A stretch of 54,129 nt of DNA from Thermoflexus sp. GTDB lineage: Bacteria > Chloroflexota > Anaerolineae > Aggregatilineales > Aggregatilineaceae. The translations under genes were made by a program, and so were the position numbers. The DNA is taken from positions 1 through 54,129 of the forward strand of contig DYGX01000023.1 in the NCBI GenBank assembly GCA_020724465.1, read 5' to 3'. Positions 11,058 to 18,801 of this stretch are shown here, piece after piece. Numbering within the stretch: the first letter of the stretch is position 1; every line of letters begins with the position of its first letter. Under the pieces are notes generated by a model, which ran no database searches, was not told the DNA's origin, and saw only the letters and a program-made list of their open reading frames with translations.

Positions 11058-11145
11058 CGGAGGGGGTGGGATTCGAACCCACGGTAGGGACAGGCCCTAC
11101 AACGGTTTTCGAGACCGCCCCGATCAACCACTCCGGCACCCCTCC
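11058..11145 (-). tRNA. tRNA-Ser (anticodon CGA)
   Basis: 88-nt class II tRNA on the minus strand. The acceptor stem GGAGGGG (11139-11145) pairs with CCCCTCC (11059-11065), with discriminator G at 11058; CCA is not encoded. The anticodon loop CTCGAAA carries CGA with U33 and A37, closed by GGT/ACC, so it decodes UCG. A long variable arm (GTAGGGCCTGTCCCTAC type) and a T-loop GTTCGAATC are present, as expected for tRNA-Ser. It lies between tadA (upstream) and the ACP gene. Confidence 0.95.
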
Positions 11146-12210: not shown

Positions 12211-12252
12211 GCGCGCCTCGCCGTTGACAAGCGAGGCGCGCGCCGCTATACT
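12211..12252 (+). promoter_or_regulatory. Consensus promoter with perfect inverted repeat over the -35 box
   Basis: TTGACA (12224-12229), 17-bp spacer, TATACT (12247-12252): an excellent housekeeping-sigma promoter firing rightward at about 12259. An 11-bp perfect inverted repeat, GCGCGCCTCGC (12211-12221) and GCGAGGCGCGC (12231-12241), flanks the -35 box, with arm centres 20 bp apart (two helical turns). This is the geometry of an operator for a dimeric repressor. It serves the leader and mutS2. Confidence 0.65.
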
Positions 12253-12299
12253 TCGCCCGACGTTCGCGCTGGAACACATGAGAAAGGGGGCGTCCGGTG

Positions 12300-12368
12300 A
12301 TGGTACCTGCAAATAACGTCCTTGCTGCCGCACTCACACCGCGGGCCATGACCGGATTGCCCTATTAG
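12300..12368 (+). CDS. Putative 22-codon leader ORF of mutS2
   Basis: ATG 12300 to TAG 12366-12368, encoding MVPANNVLAAALTPRAMTGL then PY. AGAAAGGGGG (12281-12290) sits 9 bases upstream as a plausible ribosome-binding site. It has no run of one amino acid, so it does not look like an amino-acid biosynthesis leader; position relative to the stems argues for a regulatory role. It could be chance. Confidence 0.35.
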   Translation: MVPANNVLAAALTPRAMTGLPY

Positions 12369-12405
12369 GTTGCCGGGCAAACCGGCCGGTTTCTTGCGAC
12401 GCTGC

Positions 12406-12445
12406 CGCCGTGGGTGTTGGACCTGAACACGCCGCGGCGTTTTTA
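12406..12445 (+). terminator. Intrinsic terminator inside mutS2 leader
   Basis: Stem CGCCGTGGGTGTT (12406-12418) with AACAC-G-CCGCGGCG (12426-12439), 7-base loop GGACCTG, one bulged G, then TTTTTATT. It lies between the promoter at 12224-12252 and mutS2, about 100 bases before the start codon, so transcripts must pass it to express mutS2. Confidence 0.65.
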
Positions 12446-12543
12446 TTCATTGCCACAAGCCGAGCGACGCCCCTGATGGGGTGGTAGTTGACGGATAAAC
12501 GACTATGAACCCAACCGATCCACATGACCGGACCGGACATGTG

Positions 12544-14946
12544 ATGAACGAAAAATCGGCGCGCACGCTGGAACTGCCGAAAATCCTCGAGCGGCTGGCA
12601 AGCTACGCGTCGTTCTCGGCGGGCGCGGAGCTGGCGCGCAGCCTGCGCCCGACGCCCTATCTCGACGAAGCGCAGGAGCGCCAGCAGGCCACCACCGAAG
12701 CGCGCCTGCTGCTGAACACCCACGATCAGATCGGCATGGGCGGCGCGCGCGACGTCCGCCCGGCGGTGCTGTCTGCCGCGCGCGGAGTCACGTTGGAGCC
12801 GGCAGCCCTGCTCGACATCCGCGCCACACTGCGCCAGGCGACCACCCTGCGCCGCACGGTGGGCCGCCTGAGCAACCAGTTTCCCCATCTGGCCGCGATC
12901 GCCGAGCGCCTGGAAGAGTGCACCGGGGTTCAGCACGAGATCGCCCGCGTGCTGGACGAGACCGGCCAGGTGCAGGATTCGGCGAGCGCCCGGCTGGCGA
13001 CCATCCGCCGCGATCTGCGCATCGCCTTTGACCGGCTGCAAAGCAAGCTGCAGAACATCGTGCACAACGCGGAGAACGCCAAGTTCCTGCAAGAAACCCT
13101 GATCACGCAGCGGCACGGGCGCTATGTCGTCCCCCTGAAGAGCGAATTCAAGGGGCGCATCCCCGGCATCGTGCACGATCAAAGCTCCAGCGGGGCAACG
13201 CTGTTCATCGAGCCGCTGGCGACGGTCGAGCTGAACAACGCCTGGCGCGAGCTTCAGCTTGAGGAAGAAAACGAGGTCCGCCGCATCCTGCGCGAGCTGA
13301 GCGAGCTGGTCGGGCACGAGTCGAGGTACATCGTCCGCACGGTCGAGACGCTGGCTGAGCTGGACCTGATCTTCGCACGGGCCAAATACGCGGACGCGCT
13401 CGACGCGAACCCGGTCGAGCTGGTGGGCTTTCGCCAGGCGCCGTACCCGCATCCCGGCAGCACGATCCACCTGCTGGCCGCGCGCCACCCGCTTCTCGAC
13501 CCGAAAACGGTTGTGCCGATTGACGTGGACATCGACGAAGACACCTACGTGCTGGTGATCACCGGTCCCAACACGGGCGGCAAGACGGTTGCGCTGAAGA
13601 CGGTTGGGCTGCTGACGCTGATGGCGCAGTGCGGGATGCATCTGCCCGTCGCGCCCGGCTCGCGCCTGACGGTCTTCGAGGATGTCTTCGCGGATATCGG
13701 CGACGAGCAGAGCATCGAGCAGTCGCTGTCGACGTTCTCGTCGCACATGAAGCAGATCATCGAGATTTTGCAAGCGGCCAACGAGCGCTCGCTGGTCATC
13801 CTCGACGAGCTGGGCGCAGGGACCGACCCGGCAGAAGGCTCGGCGCTGGCGCGCGCGTTGCTCGACGACCTGGTGGCGCGCGGGATCACGACTCTGGTCA
13901 CCACACATCACCCGGAGCTGAAGATCTACAGCCACGAGAAAAAGGGCGTGCGCAACGCCAGCGTCGAGTTCGACCTGGAGACTCTGGCGCCGACCTACCG
14001 GCTGATCGTGGGCTTGCCGGGGCGCTCCAACGCGCTGGCGATCGCCGAGCGGCTGGGCCTGCCGGCGAGCATCATCGAGAAGGCGCGCGGGCTGGTGACC
14101 GAAGAAGACCTGATCGCCGACGACCTGCTCGACGAGATCCACAAGACCCGCGAGGAAACCCGTCGCGCCCTCGCCCAGGCCGCCCAGGCCCAGGCCCAGG
14201 CGGAAGAGCTGCGCAACACGTTGCGCGAGCGCCTGGAAGCGATTGAGGACGAGCGGCGCGAGCTGCTGGCCCAGGCGCGGCAGGAAGCCGCCGCCGAGCT
14301 GGACGCCTTGCGCGCCGAGATCCGCCGCGTGCGCAAGCAGTTGGCGGCTGCCGGCCAGCCTTTGGATGCGATCCGCCGGGTGGCCGACGAGGTCAAGTCC
14401 ATCGAGGGCGATCTGGACGAGCTGCCCGTCCCGGCGGTGGAGATGCCGGACGATGTGGACGACGAGCGCGCGCTGCGCCTGGGCGATCTGGTCTGGGTGC
14501 AGTCGCTGGGCGTCGAAGGGCAGATCATGGAGTTGGGCGAGGACGAGGCCGAGGTGCAGGTCGGGCGGCTGCGCCTGCGCGCCAAGCTGGACGACCTGGC
14601 CTATCGCAGCAAGAGCGAGAGCAAGCGCGACAAGAAGCGCACCGCCCGCTCGACGGCCAGCGAGGCAGTCAGCGCCCCGCCGCGCACCGCGTCACCCGGG
14701 CTGGAGCTGGACCTGCGCGGCCAGACGGTTGAGGACTCGCTCCCCACGCTGGAAGACTACCTCGATGCGGCGTACATGGCCGGGCTGCCCTTTGTGCGCA
14801 TCATCCACGGCAAAGGCACCGGCGCGCTGCGCCAGGCCATTCGCGAGCGGCTCAACGGCCACCCGCTGGTGAAGGCGTATGCGCGGGGGGACGAAAAAGA
14901 GGGCGGCGACGGGGTGACCGTAGTCAGCCTGGTGCCGTCGAGCTAG
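12544..14946 (+). CDS. mutS2: MutS2 ATPase/endonuclease with Smr domain
   Basis: About 800 residues, typical of MutS2. After an N-terminal clamp/lever region come the ATPase core motifs GPNTGGKTVALKTVGLL (Walker A), SSHMKQIIEIL, and LDELGAGTDPAEGSALARAL (Walker B), then the TTHHPELKIYS motif. A long Gln/Glu/Arg coiled coil (about 530-640) leads to a basic linker and a C-terminal Smr nuclease domain with LDLRGQTVEDSL and HGKGTGALRQ. MutS2 has been linked to suppression of recombination and, in Bacillus, to splitting collided ribosomes. Start set at ATG 12544, where homology-like sequence begins (MNEKSARTLELPKILERLA); ATG 12505 is in frame and possible. Neither has a strong ribosome-binding site. 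Controlled by the leader described above. Confidence 0.95.
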   Translation: MNEKSARTLELPKILERLASYASFSAGAELARSLRPTPYLDEAQERQQATTEARLLLNTHDQIGMGGARDVRPAVLSAARGVTLEPAALLDIRATLRQATTLRRTVGRLSNQFPHLAAIAERLEECTGVQHEIARVLDETGQVQDSASARLATIRRDLRIAFDRLQSKLQNIVHNAENAKFLQETLITQRHGRYVVPLKSEFKGRIPGIVHDQSSSGATLFIEPLATVELNNAWRELQLEEENEVRRILRELSELVGHESRYIVRTVETLAELDLIFARAKYADALDANPVELVGFRQAPYPHPGSTIHLLAARHPLLDPKTVVPIDVDIDEDTYVLVITGPNTGGKTVALKTVGLLTLMAQCGMHLPVAPGSRLTVFEDVFADIGDEQSIEQSLSTFSSHMKQIIEILQAANERSLVILDELGAGTDPAEGSALARALLDDLVARGITTLVTTHHPELKIYSHEKKGVRNASVEFDLETLAPTYRLIVGLPGRSNALAIAERLGLPASIIEKARGLVTEEDLIADDLLDEIHKTREETRRALAQAAQAQAQAEELRNTLRERLEAIEDERRELLAQARQEAAAELDALRAEIRRVRKQLAAAGQPLDAIRRVADEVKSIEGDLDELPVPAVEMPDDVDDERALRLGDLVWVQSLGVEGQIMELGEDEAEVQVGRLRLRAKLDDLAYRSKSESKRDKKRTARSTASEAVSAPPRTASPGLELDLRGQTVEDSLPTLEDYLDAAYMAGLPFVRIIHGKGTGALRQAIRERLNGHPLVKAYARGDEKEGGDGVTVVSLVPSS

Positions 14947-15439: not shown

Positions 15440-16954
15440 TCAGCCGACCGGGAACGCGCCCACCCACTCGGCAAAGACATCGTCCAGATCGGCGCCGAGC
15501 GACTGTTCAAAGCTCGCCAGCATGTCCGCCGGCTCGGCGATCCGGTAGCGGTACGCCGCGAAGTAGTCGCGCAGTGCGGCCAGCACGGCCTCAAGCCCGT
15601 AGGCGTCGGCCAGCGCGCCGAAGAAGAGCGGCCCTTTCTGGTAGACCAGGTAATAGTAAGAGGTGGCGTCGTAGGCGCTCGCCGGCAGGCCAATCGGCCG
15701 GTCGAGATTGGCCGCCAGCGCCAGGAAGCGGGTGTACTGCGCCAGATAGGTTTCCATTGCGGCCTCGAACGACGCCTCGCCTTCAAGATCGCGGATGAAC
15801 AGCGCGGTGGCGAACTGCGCCAGGGCTTCGTCCATCCAGGGGTCAAGCGTCTGATCGTTGCCGACCAGGCTGTACCACCACTGGTGCGCGGTCTCGTGGA
15901 CGATCACGAACAGGAAATTGTCGCCGTTCTCGTCCCACAGCCGGTCGCCGACGACGAACAGGCCGGGATACTCGACCCCGCCCGCGCGGGTCGGCGTCTG
16001 GACGACATCCAGCTCGGCGAAGGGGTAGGCGCCGAACGTCGCGTTGAAAAGCTTAACCGCTTCCTGCGTGACGCGCAGCGCGACGAACGCGTTGAACTCG
16101 GCATTGACGCGGGCCGGATCATAGCTGATGCGGATGGTGGTTCCATCCTGCTCGCCGCTGAGCGTCACATAGTGTGTGCTGGCGAAGATGGCAAAGTCGC
16201 GCACCAGGGGCGCGATGTACTCGTGCACGAGCGTCCCCGCGGCGCCCGCGTGCTGCGCGATCTCGATCCCGCTGGTGGCGAAGACGAGGTCTTCCGGCGC
16301 GGTGATCGTGACCTCATAGAAGGCTGTTTCGCTGTAGACGGCGTCGCCCTGGGCGTGATCGGTGACGTCCCACCACCCGTCACCCGGCTCGTACACCGAC
16401 AGGACCGGGTAGGCGTTGGGCAGCGCCAGCACGCCGTCCAGATAGCTGAACTGCGCGTAGAGGCGGACGCGCCCTTCCCACACGGTCAGCTCGTAATCCA
16501 GCGCGAGGGTGGCCGCGGCGCCGGGCGCGAGCGGGCCGGGCAGCGGCACGCGCAGCACCGTGCCGGTCGGGTCGAGGTGGGGGGTCACGGTCCGGCCGTC
16601 GACCGTGACGTGCGAAACGAACATCTTGCCCCCGTACGACTCCAGATTCGGGTAGAGCCGGAAGACGATCTCGTCAAGCGCGTCCGGCGCCCGGTTGGTA
16701 TAGCGCACGCGCTGGTACCCGTCGATCGCCGCCTGGGTGGGGGTCAGCGCGAGCGCCATGTCGATCGTGTAGTGGGGTGCGTGGGCGTGCGCGGCGAGAT
16801 CGCCGGCGAACTCCGGCAGCATGGCCGGGGCAAAGCGCGCCAGCGGTTCATCGCCCGGTGCCTGAGCGGCTGCGGGCATACCAGCCCCGGCAAGGACAAG
16901 CACCCCCACCAGTGCGATCAGCCCGCCGAGCCGCAGAAGTCCACGCCGCTCCAT
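15440..16954 (-). CDS. Secreted M1 family metallopeptidase (paralogue 1)
   Basis: About 504 residues. A Sec signal peptide (LLRLGGLIALVGVLVLAGAG then MPAAAQA) precedes a beta-rich N-terminal domain (YTNRAPDALDEIVFRLYPNL) and a gluzincin catalytic domain with HETAHQWWYSLVGN, the third zinc ligand in DPWMDEALAQF and the catalytic Tyr in YQKGPLFF. The GxMEN exopeptidase motif is replaced by GGVEYPG, as in the DUF-type bacterial M1 branch, so N-terminal trimming specificity is uncertain. Start at ATG 16954, with GAGAAGGGG just upstream (the codon before is GTG). It lies downstream of a paralogue on the same strand (about 110 bp apart). Confidence 0.9.
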   Translation of the reverse strand: MERRGLLRLGGLIALVGVLVLAGAGMPAAAQAPGDEPLARFAPAMLPEFAGDLAAHAHAPHYTIDMALALTPTQAAIDGYQRVRYTNRAPDALDEIVFRLYPNLESYGGKMFVSHVTVDGRTVTPHLDPTGTVLRVPLPGPLAPGAAATLALDYELTVWEGRVRLYAQFSYLDGVLALPNAYPVLSVYEPGDGWWDVTDHAQGDAVYSETAFYEVTITAPEDLVFATSGIEIAQHAGAAGTLVHEYIAPLVRDFAIFASTHYVTLSGEQDGTTIRISYDPARVNAEFNAFVALRVTQEAVKLFNATFGAYPFAELDVVQTPTRAGGVEYPGLFVVGDRLWDENGDNFLFVIVHETAHQWWYSLVGNDQTLDPWMDEALAQFATALFIRDLEGEASFEAAMETYLAQYTRFLALAANLDRPIGLPASAYDATSYYYLVYQKGPLFFGALADAYGLEAVLAALRDYFAAYRYRIAEPADMLASFEQSLGADLDDVFAEWVGAFPVG

Positions 16955-17063
16955 CACGCCCCTTCTCTCCCGACCTGTACGGCGCAGCGCGCGCCGGTCT
17001 GTGCCCTATGATAGCAGCGAAGGCCGCCGGCACGAAACCGGCGGCAGACCGGCCCGGCACCCC

Positions 17064-18686
17064 TTAGCCGCCGGGCGAGGGCGCGGTGGACATGTCCAGA
17101 CCGGGAAACTCGCCGACCCACTCGCGGAAGATCGCGTCGAGGTCCTCGCCGGTCGCGTCCTCGAAGGCGGCCAGCACGTCCGCCGGGCGGGCGACCTCGT
17201 AGCGGTGGCGCTCGAAGTAAAGCTGAAGCGCCGCCAGAAGGCGCTCGGTGCCGAGCAGCCGCTCCAGCTCGGCATAGAACAGCGGCCCCTTGACGTAGAT
17301 GATCAGGCCGTAATTGTTATCGACGTAGGACGCCACCGGCAGATTGAGCGGCAGATCCGGCGCGCCACTGCCGCGATAGTAGCTGTACGATCGCTCGTCG
17401 GCGGCCAGGAGCTCCTGGGCGCGTCTTTCGCCGTAAACCGCGCGCATATACAGGTACTCGGAGTAGGCCGTCAGGGACTCGTCCAGCCAGGGCTGCTCGA
17501 CCTGATTGTTGCCGACCAGGCTGTACCACCACTGGTGCGCCACCTCGTGCGCGGTGGTGATCTCCAGGAAGGCGTTGCCGCGCTCCCAGTTGCGGTCGGC
17601 GATGATGACGATGCCGGGGTATTCGATCCCGGTCAGGTTGAACGTCTCGACCACGTCCAGCTCGGCGAACGGATACGGGCCGAACGCCTCGTTGAAAGCA
17701 CGCACCGAGTCCAGCGCGATCTGCAGCACCCATTCTGCGGCGCTCTCGCCCCCCGGCCAGAAGTAGACCTTGACCGCGATATCCTCGACGTTCCCGGTGA
17801 TCACGCCGAACTCCGGCCCGGCGACGATCAGCGAGTCGCGCATGGGGCCGCTGACGATGTGATGCGTGGTCAGGCCGCCCCCCGCCGGATAGGTGGCCAG
17901 GGTGGAGCCGCTGGCCGCCACAACGAACGTGTCCGGCACGGTCAGCAGAATCTCGTACAGTCCAGTTTCGCTGTAGACGGCGTCGCCGGCGGGCAGCGGG
18001 CGCTCCTGCCACCAGCCGCGCCCTTCTTCATAGACGGACAGCATCGGGTGCCATTCCGGGCCGGAGAAGACGTTGTGCTGGTAGCCAAACGCGCCGTAGG
18101 ACGCGAACATCCCGCGCTCGGCTGAGACGATGAACTGCATCGCGATCTCGACCGCCTGGCCCGGCGGCAATGGCTCCGCCAGCGGGACGATCAGCACCGA
18201 CTGGCGCCCGGCCAGCCTCGGCTCGACCGGCACCCCCTCGACCTCGACATCCGAGACGACCATCCGCCCGCCCAGCGACGGCAGGTTGGGGTACAGCCGG
18301 AACACGATTTCGCTCAGTATGTCGGATGAATGGTTGGTGTAGCGCACGCGCTGGGCGCCGCGAATCACCGCCACGTCGCCCTCGAAGCGGAGCGACGCCT
18401 CGATGTAGTAGCGGTTGCGATCCGCGAAGCGATACACATCCCCTGCAAAGGTCGGGCGCATGGCCGCTTCGAAGCGGGCCACATCGTCCCAATCGACGGC
18501 AGGCAGCGCGATGGGGTCAACCGGCGGGAGGTCGGTCGGCGTTGCCGGCGGCAGCGCGGTGATGGTCGGAGCCAGAGTCGGCAACGCGCCGGAAGCAGCA
18601 TCGGCTGCCGCTCCGCAGCCGGCCAGCGCGGCGATCCCCAGCAGCGCCGCGCTCAGCACCAGCGCCGCCTGTGCTCGAACGGTCAT
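17064..18686 (-). CDS. M1 family metallopeptidase, lipoprotein (paralogue 2)
   Basis: About 540 residues. The N-terminus is a lipoprotein signal with lipobox LAGC (Cys about residue 24), then a Thr/Pro-rich spacer. The M1 core has HEVAHQWWYSLVGN, PWLDESLTAYSEYLY and YVKGPLFYAEL, matching the paralogue at 15440-16954 almost motif for motif, including GIEYPG in place of GAMEN. The two genes arose by tandem duplication and differ in anchoring: this one is tethered to the outer face of the membrane, the other is released. ATG 18686 is preferred over GTG 18692 because AAAGGGGA lies 8-9 bases before it. Likely role: digestion of external peptides. Confidence 0.9.
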   Translation of the reverse strand: MTVRAQAALVLSAALLGIAALAGCGAAADAASGALPTLAPTITALPPATPTDLPPVDPIALPAVDWDDVARFEAAMRPTFAGDVYRFADRNRYYIEASLRFEGDVAVIRGAQRVRYTNHSSDILSEIVFRLYPNLPSLGGRMVVSDVEVEGVPVEPRLAGRQSVLIVPLAEPLPPGQAVEIAMQFIVSAERGMFASYGAFGYQHNVFSGPEWHPMLSVYEEGRGWWQERPLPAGDAVYSETGLYEILLTVPDTFVVAASGSTLATYPAGGGLTTHHIVSGPMRDSLIVAGPEFGVITGNVEDIAVKVYFWPGGESAAEWVLQIALDSVRAFNEAFGPYPFAELDVVETFNLTGIEYPGIVIIADRNWERGNAFLEITTAHEVAHQWWYSLVGNNQVEQPWLDESLTAYSEYLYMRAVYGERRAQELLAADERSYSYYRGSGAPDLPLNLPVASYVDNNYGLIIYVKGPLFYAELERLLGTERLLAALQLYFERHRYEVARPADVLAAFEDATGEDLDAIFREWVGEFPGLDMSTAPSPGG

Positions 18687-18801
18687 CTTCACGGTCCCCT
18701 TTGCGTCTGCACGCCGTGCCTCTATCTACAGCTTATACGTTTCTGCCAGCGAAATTTGCGCAGGCTTGCCACACCCGGTCGCCAGCCGAGTTATGATCGG
18801 A

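Follow-up and report, generated by a model that had tools for sequence, protein, structure and literature searches.

In attenuators of the trp type, the position of the ribosome sets which of the alternative stems 1:2, 2:3 and 3:4 is formed. Among the described systems, the vmlR leader of Bacillus subtilis is one of the closest to the locus reported here: a ribosome stalled at initiation of the leader ORF blocks an anti-antiterminator stem which contains this ORF, an antiterminator replaces the terminator, and initiation is the stage at which two of its inducers are expected to hold the ribosome (PMC9226507). The vmlR product protects ribosomes, and its leader has an ORF of 3 codons, a hairpin sequestering the Shine-Dalgarno (SD) sequence of vmlR and NusG-dependent pausing (PMC9226507). 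The rli80-hflXr leader of Listeria monocytogenes likewise consists of a leader ORF, an anti-antiterminator, an antiterminator and a terminator; its 14-aa ORF contains an RLR arrest motif, and its target, induced by lincomycin and erythromycin, encodes an HflX homolog, i.e. a homolog of a ribosome-splitting factor (PMC6310831). Ribosome-mediated attenuation by a leader ORF is likewise reported for bmrB-bmrCD of B. subtilis, which is induced by 50S-targeting drugs and differs from the present locus in that the terminator lies inside a 53-aa ORF and the target is an efflux pump (PMC4191407). These three attenuators (vmlR, hflXr and bmrCD) are all from Bacillota, and leader ORFs are also known in Escherichia coli, Sinorhizobium and Mycobacterium. 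The upstream ORF of topAI in E. coli is reported to sense several classes of ribosome drugs, so a general input exists elsewhere; its target, unlike ours, is a toxin-antitoxin operon, and we liken the two by input only (PMC12121999).

The locus examined here lies upstream of mutS2 in a window of 54,129 nucleotides (contig DYGX01000023.1) from Thermoflexus sp., whose genome assembly comprises 4.4 Mb in 56 contigs with 99.0% completeness and 4.3% contamination. Its putative attenuator shares architecture and logic with those of vmlR and hflXr, a likeness drawn from the described order of elements (PMC9226507, PMC6310831). Unlike the vmlR leader, the mutS2 leaders have an ORF of 23 to 39 codons which itself carries a candidate antiterminator arm, they precede mutS2, and they come from the phylum Chloroflexota. 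They also differ from hflXr in placing no constraint on the peptide (1 of 14 contains RLR) and in preceding a gene for a MutS2 ATPase. The alternative-stem logic is that of trp-type attenuators, but without a run of regulatory codons.

The downstream gene encodes a full-length MutS2, with 883 bits for TIGR01069 against a curated cut-off of 400, and the Pfam matches MutS_V, MSSS and Smr place it in the MutS2 family (ATPase plus Smr). In the closest relative compared (G001) the protein is 98% identical. Because relatives have an equivalent of MNEKSA at ATG 12544, this is the most likely start, and it replaces position 12505 assumed earlier. MutS2 of B. subtilis is reported to bind collided ribosomes and to split disomes by means of its ATPase, and cells without it are sensitive to chloramphenicol, tetracycline and erythromycin (PMC10897456). 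Judging from its domains, the protein in the window may act in the same way.

Table 1. Features of the mutS2 leader in the window.
Feature	Position	Strand	Remark
Promoter TTGACA-N17-TATACT	12224..12252	+	Promoter scan; same place in 14/14 leaders
Shine-Dalgarno site of leader ORF, GAAAGGGGG	12282..12290	+	GAAAGGAGG in 11/14 leaders
Stem I, 5' arm: SD end and start codons, putative anti-antiterminator arm	12287..12303	+	
Leader ORF of 23 codons, GTG start to TAG (12366-12368)	12297..12368	+	Peptide not conserved
Candidate antiterminator arm A inside ORF, complementary to terminator 5' arm	12328..12344	+	
Stem I, 3' arm: anti-SD strand, last ORF codons	12346..12362	+	Frame 0 in 13/14
Earlier-described second stem, 5' arm (partner 12375-12385)	12352..12362	+	Present here; family-wide support weak
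Earlier-described second stem, 3' arm	12375..12385	+	
Terminator 5' arm B, common to terminator and antiterminator	12405..12420	+	
Intrinsic terminator hairpin 12406-12439 (3' arm 12426-12439), T-run 12440-12444	12406..12444	+	
mutS2	12544..14946	+	MutS domain V, MutS2/Smr-associated SH3 domain, Smr domain; start from relatives

The consensus promoter TTGACA-17-TATACT of the original prediction is present (Table 1), a scan of 2 kb having returned 1 promoter-like site where 0.2 were expected, and transcription would start near 12259. A leader ORF of 22 codons with a ribosome-binding site had also been proposed; ORF and SD sequence stand, whereas the start at ATG 12300 probably does not. At the homologous position relatives have GTG in 13 and ATG in 1 of 14 leaders (own genome included), so GTG 12297 is most likely the start, giving 23 codons. 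The intrinsic terminator proposed in front of mutS2 is there as a hairpin followed by a T-run; a simple consensus terminator scan listed only 12372-12386 (0.9 chance sites expected) and missed this hairpin. Rfam searched over the whole window at gathering thresholds gave only a tRNA (11058-11145) and no RNA family at the leader, and a riboswitch or other described RNA family was rejected on these grounds. Taken by itself the leader of the window is not beyond chance: its fold is unremarkable (z -1.63, 15 of 200 shuffles being equally stable), 22% of codon shuffles match the complementarity between ORF and terminator, and in the folding described below the real ORF is equalled by 5 of 20 codon-shuffled versions in its pairing to the terminator arm. 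Significance comes from comparison within the family.

Some further sequence features were noted around the locus. A near-perfect palindrome at 12521-12543, right before the mutS2 start, contains CATGACCGGA, which is identical to 12347-12356 of the leader anti-SD strand. Its inner part is perfect in the sister genome L003, where the outermost pair differs; by eye it was not seen in the other leaders, and it could pair with the SD/start arm of the leader. The inverted repeat GCGCGCCTCGC/GCGAGGCGCGC at 12211-12241 flanks the -35 box and is a possible operator, already degraded in L003. Farther downstream, 15440-18692 holds two adjacent minus-strand ORFs of 505 and 542 aa with HEXXH motifs, which we take to resemble M1-type metallopeptidases.

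The family is the GTDB family of the window within Anaerolineae; of its 18 genomes searched, 15 gave a mutS2 match at 1e-100. We compared 14 upstream regions, leaving out G008, whose match starts at residue 176 without the first 175 residues. The same order of promoter, SD, short ORF, terminator and mutS2 was found in all 14. ORF with ribosome-binding site and intrinsic terminator between ORF and mutS2 are kept in 14 of 14, the opposite of the loss in relatives that would speak against an attenuator. The promoters have TATACT in every case, TTGACA in 12 and TTGTCA in 2, with a spacer of 17 (18 in L007 and L033). A 9-nt SD sequence precedes every ORF start (GTG in 13, ATG in 1), and the ORFs comprise 23–26 codons in 13 leaders and 39 in L013. 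The terminators are at or below -19.7 kcal/mol in 14 of 14. This comparison drew on 23 of 48 named loci and 17 loci from the order besides the 14 leaders; among the 40 non-family mutS2 upstream regions, of which L016 and L041 look by length like the same contig, a terminator-like hairpin occurred in 8 and -19.7 kcal/mol was reached in 2. The leader lies 23–161 nt from mutS2 (12 of 14 leaders measured). In L010 and L012 just 23–24 nt separate the T-run from the mutS2 ATG, a gap too short for a separate mutS2 promoter there.

Regarding the leader peptides, no common sequence was seen by eye in the 14 except for a pattern of C-terminal residues, which is probably dictated by the anti-SD strand. 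Frame 0 holds for this strand in all but one of the 14 leaders, its distance from the start codon being 48, 54, 57, 60 or 63 nt, and the stop follows exactly 5 codons past it in 12 of 14. Given this constancy of frame and stop spacing, the reading frame and the stop look to be under selection and the peptide does not. In L009 we noted by eye a 9-nt stretch, CCTCCTTTT, right after the leader stop and perfectly complementary to the leader SD, which is a second possible SD-hiding arm.

Strong matches to a covariance model of the leader (E no higher than 7e-10) were confined to the position before mutS2, where 14 of the 18 family genomes have one; elsewhere in these 18 nothing was better than E 0.003, the eight rows ranging from E 0.003 to 0.9. 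No strong match outside the family was found among 154 genomes of the order, with three weak ones (two f2-family genomes, E 5e-5 to 0.01), nor among 396 genomes of the class, with two weak ones, of which one, in G284 (E 4e-4), adds to those of the order. Weak-match alignments were viewed for L097, L098, L104/L106 and L105, which align mainly at the terminator hairpin, with L096, L099–L103 and L107 left out of this view; the match L107 covers model positions 93–158 only. Use of the leader as a module before other genes is unsupported, the strong matches preceding only mutS2.

The original prediction placed two mutually exclusive stems in the leader, 12293-12303/12346-12356 and 12352-12362/12375-12385. 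Both exist in the window and share 12352-12356, and across the family they fare differently. The first, which joins SD and start codon with the end of the ORF (stem I), holds up: 82.9% of its cells are paired, a value reached by 1 of 500 shuffles, its covariation score was reached by none of 500, the own-partner test gave 3 and 24 of 20000 permutations, and RNAalifold predicts stem I together with the terminator unaided. Both-sided changes and pair types were reached by 134 and 59 of 500 shuffles for stem I and by 118 and 296 for the terminator. The second stem is at best weakly supported family-wide, with 4827 of 20000 permutations for 14 leaders and 4838 for 11. When a ribosome occupies the start codon, pairing of the ORF end to the region past the stop is 0.52 against 0.34 for shuffled sequence, mostly not significant in single leaders.

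A pairing absent from the earlier reading is that of ORF codons 11–16 (12328-12344, arm A) with the terminator 5' arm (12405-12420, arm B), which would form an antiterminator excluding the terminator. Its register of ten pairs was taken from one leader, L011, and tested on an alignment (A1) of 13 of the 14 leaders; L013 with its longer ORF was left out there and included in the permutation, duplex and folding tests. On A1, 91.5% of cells are paired with a covariation score of 0.487, and 0 of 500 shuffles reach either value; registers slid along the alignment pair in 36–52%. The counts of both-sided pair changes and of further pair types, 4 and 14, do not stand out, being matched or exceeded in 224 and 357 of 500 shuffles; of the shuffle measures, these two are the least misled by relatedness. 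Because shuffles ignore relatedness, we added a comparison of registers, which keeps it. Among 632 ten-column registers between leader and terminator 5' arm, the top five are the antiterminator helix shifted along itself (88–92%), against a mean of 45% (sd 9) and 66% for the best other register, and the ranking was unchanged with the 10 rows left after removal of three close relatives.

Pairing with the own terminator was matched or exceeded with the terminators of other species in 1 of 20000 permutations for 14 leaders and 35 for 11; scored by duplex energy, the same test gave 10, 95 and 456 of 20000 for 14, 11 and 10 leaders. The own terminator is the single best partner of its ORF in only 2 of 14. 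Traced on a MutS2 tree, 20 changes fall on the seven core pairs, 17 of which retain a standard pair; over all ten pairs, pairing is retained in 25 of the 37 changes inferred, a lower share owing to single-base bulges in the outer pairs of several leaders. Many of the both-sided changes fall within one clade (L007, L010, L012, L033). In a duplex search the best partner of arm B within the ORF begins 29–34 nt past the start codon for 11 of the leaders, that is, for all but L004, L013 and L014; for L014 the search preferred an offset of 40, while the alignment offset of 30 was used in folding. The antiterminator is conserved by pairing and not by sequence.

We folded the leaders with ribosomes at different positions, masking a 31-nt footprint, on a transcript in which the terminator 5' arm is out and the 3' arm not yet made. 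For a ribosome at the start codon or codon 4, the antiterminator exceeded 0.5 in 13 of 14 leaders. Moving the ribosome to codon 6 left it dominant in 7 of 14, and at codons 11 and 16 none of the 14 had it dominant, the last result following largely from masking by construction. For start-codon occupancy the real ORFs averaged 0.82, against 0.34 for their codon-shuffled versions (20 per leader). The early-ribosome state and this shuffle control are the informative parts of the modelling. L014 hardly forms the antiterminator (0.02). The antiterminator was dominant in 7 of 14 when the leader carried no ribosome and likewise in 7 of 14 when one sat at the stop codon, so the model only partly explains the OFF state under normal translation. 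In equilibrium folding of the full leader, the terminator on average outcompetes the antiterminator under each occupancy modelled (0.72–0.85 vs 0–0.13), and switching must therefore be kinetic. Attenuation choices are generally kinetic.

These comparisons make it quite probable, in our estimation, that the leader is a ribosome-controlled transcription attenuator, in which an early-held ribosome would lead to read-through into mutS2 and ribosomes moving through the ORF to termination. The reading of the original prediction as a ribosome-controlled attenuator is largely supported by the ORF, terminator, stem I and antiterminator found family-wide. The anatomy of a real and conserved attenuator appears well supported by the aligned leaders: the ORF with its ribosome-binding site precedes the terminator in 14 of 14, and in 13 of them the anti-SD strand keeps the ORF's frame; an antiterminator arm lies within the ORF, L014 being the exception and the pair-type counts not exceeding those of shuffles; and SD and start codon are part of the conserved stem I. 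From its position, a ribosome at the start codon would block stem I. Control by the ribosome is likely, and the proposed direction of control probable; the conserved anatomy suggests that the ribosomes in question are stalled ones.

In detail, a ribosome halted within the first ~5 codons, the start codon included, by a drug, a shortage of charged tRNA or general arrest would block stem I and leave the middle of the ORF (codons ~11–16) free to catch the emerging terminator 5' arm, and RNA polymerase would read on into mutS2. Ribosomes running through the ORF would cover arm A, and after their release stem I might, as we would guess, close around arm A, with the terminator forming and mutS2 off. 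Should MutS2 have the same activity here as in Bacillus, it would take the stuck ribosomes apart, which would complete a feedback loop. With no constraint on the peptide, the expected input of the switch is a slowing or arrest of translation in general and not one amino acid or drug.

The same switch could also work with another sign and input. The leader would then sense the frequency of initiation, i.e. free ribosomes or initiation factors, and mutS2 would follow ribosome supply instead of stalling; in the absence of initiation, stem I would close or the antiterminator form. The conserved stem I does bury the SD of the ORF itself, and an antiterminator is predicted for half of the leaders (7/14) when no ribosome is present, but it is this even split, set against 13/14 for an early-held ribosome in pseudoknot-free folding, that makes us regard control by supply as unlikely. 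A drug-specific attenuator, in which certain antibiotics arrest ribosomes on certain early codons as in RLR macrolide leaders, seems to us distinctly unlikely: early arrest is the relevant kind, since in 11 of 14 arm A begins 29–34 nt past the start codon, and the ORF of L014 has RLR at codons 6–8, yet by eye the early codons of the 14 ORFs have no common arrest motif, RLR being confined to this one leader and conserved nowhere else. L014, the leader with the weak antiterminator, may have moved to a drug-specific mode with this macrolide-sensing leader motif, or the RLR is due to chance.

We give very little credence to a functional micropeptide, or to the terminated transcript being a small RNA with incidental read-through into mutS2. 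Promoter and terminator would indeed yield a discrete RNA of ~185 nt; against this, the peptide is not conserved, such an RNA offers no reason for the ORF interior to stay complementary to the terminator arm, the leader stays within 23–161 nt of mutS2 in the 12 of 14 measured, and the covariance model found nothing better than E 0.003 elsewhere in the 18 family genomes. A classical amino-acid attenuator of the trp/his type is scarcely credible and was rejected, since the leader ORF, antiterminator and terminator do stand in the classical order but by eye the 14 leader peptides contain no codon run, no long single-residue run is common to the 14 ORFs, the peptides are not conserved and mutS2 is not a biosynthetic gene.

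The original prediction held that feedback on mutS2 had not been described, which fits the openly licensed literature, where among the matches listed no regulation of mutS2 is described. PMC13159725, which combines MutS2, attenuation, leader and ribosome, concerns a Pseudomonas SmrB-like protein and not mutS2 regulation. The phrase 'mutS2 expression' alongside MutS2 occurs in PMC10897456, and no co-mention of MutS2 with uORF was found in this literature. In a wider search of openly licensed work from 2021 on, MutS2 is unmentioned among the matches listed; the main text of a survey of premature terminators (PMC2965389) has no word starting with mutS or Chloroflex. Among the matches listed for Chloroflexi with leader-peptide attenuation, again openly licensed, Chloroflexi are named only in a remark on noisy groups and in a reference title. 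What appears new is thus mutS2 as the target and, as far as searched, the phylum Chloroflexota.

If mutS2 is induced by translation stress with the proposed sign, the leader, by reading translation, would tie the expression of a collision-rescue factor to the stress it relieves, and making more MutS2 during ribosome stalling would be sensible. As hflXr has such a leader too, rescue factors may recurrently acquire leader-ORF attenuators. The leader offers a concrete prediction that can be probed by mutation (arm A vs arm B, start codon, SD), and it would be a natural reporter of early ribosome arrest. Our belief and our doubt are evenly balanced on the most far-reaching version, in which one family of Chloroflexota has evolved a peptide-independent gauge of early ribosome arrest that sets the dose of a collision-rescue ATPase, with more stalls near start codons giving more MutS2. 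If true, the traffic and the rescue of ribosomes would be coupled in a self-correcting loop.
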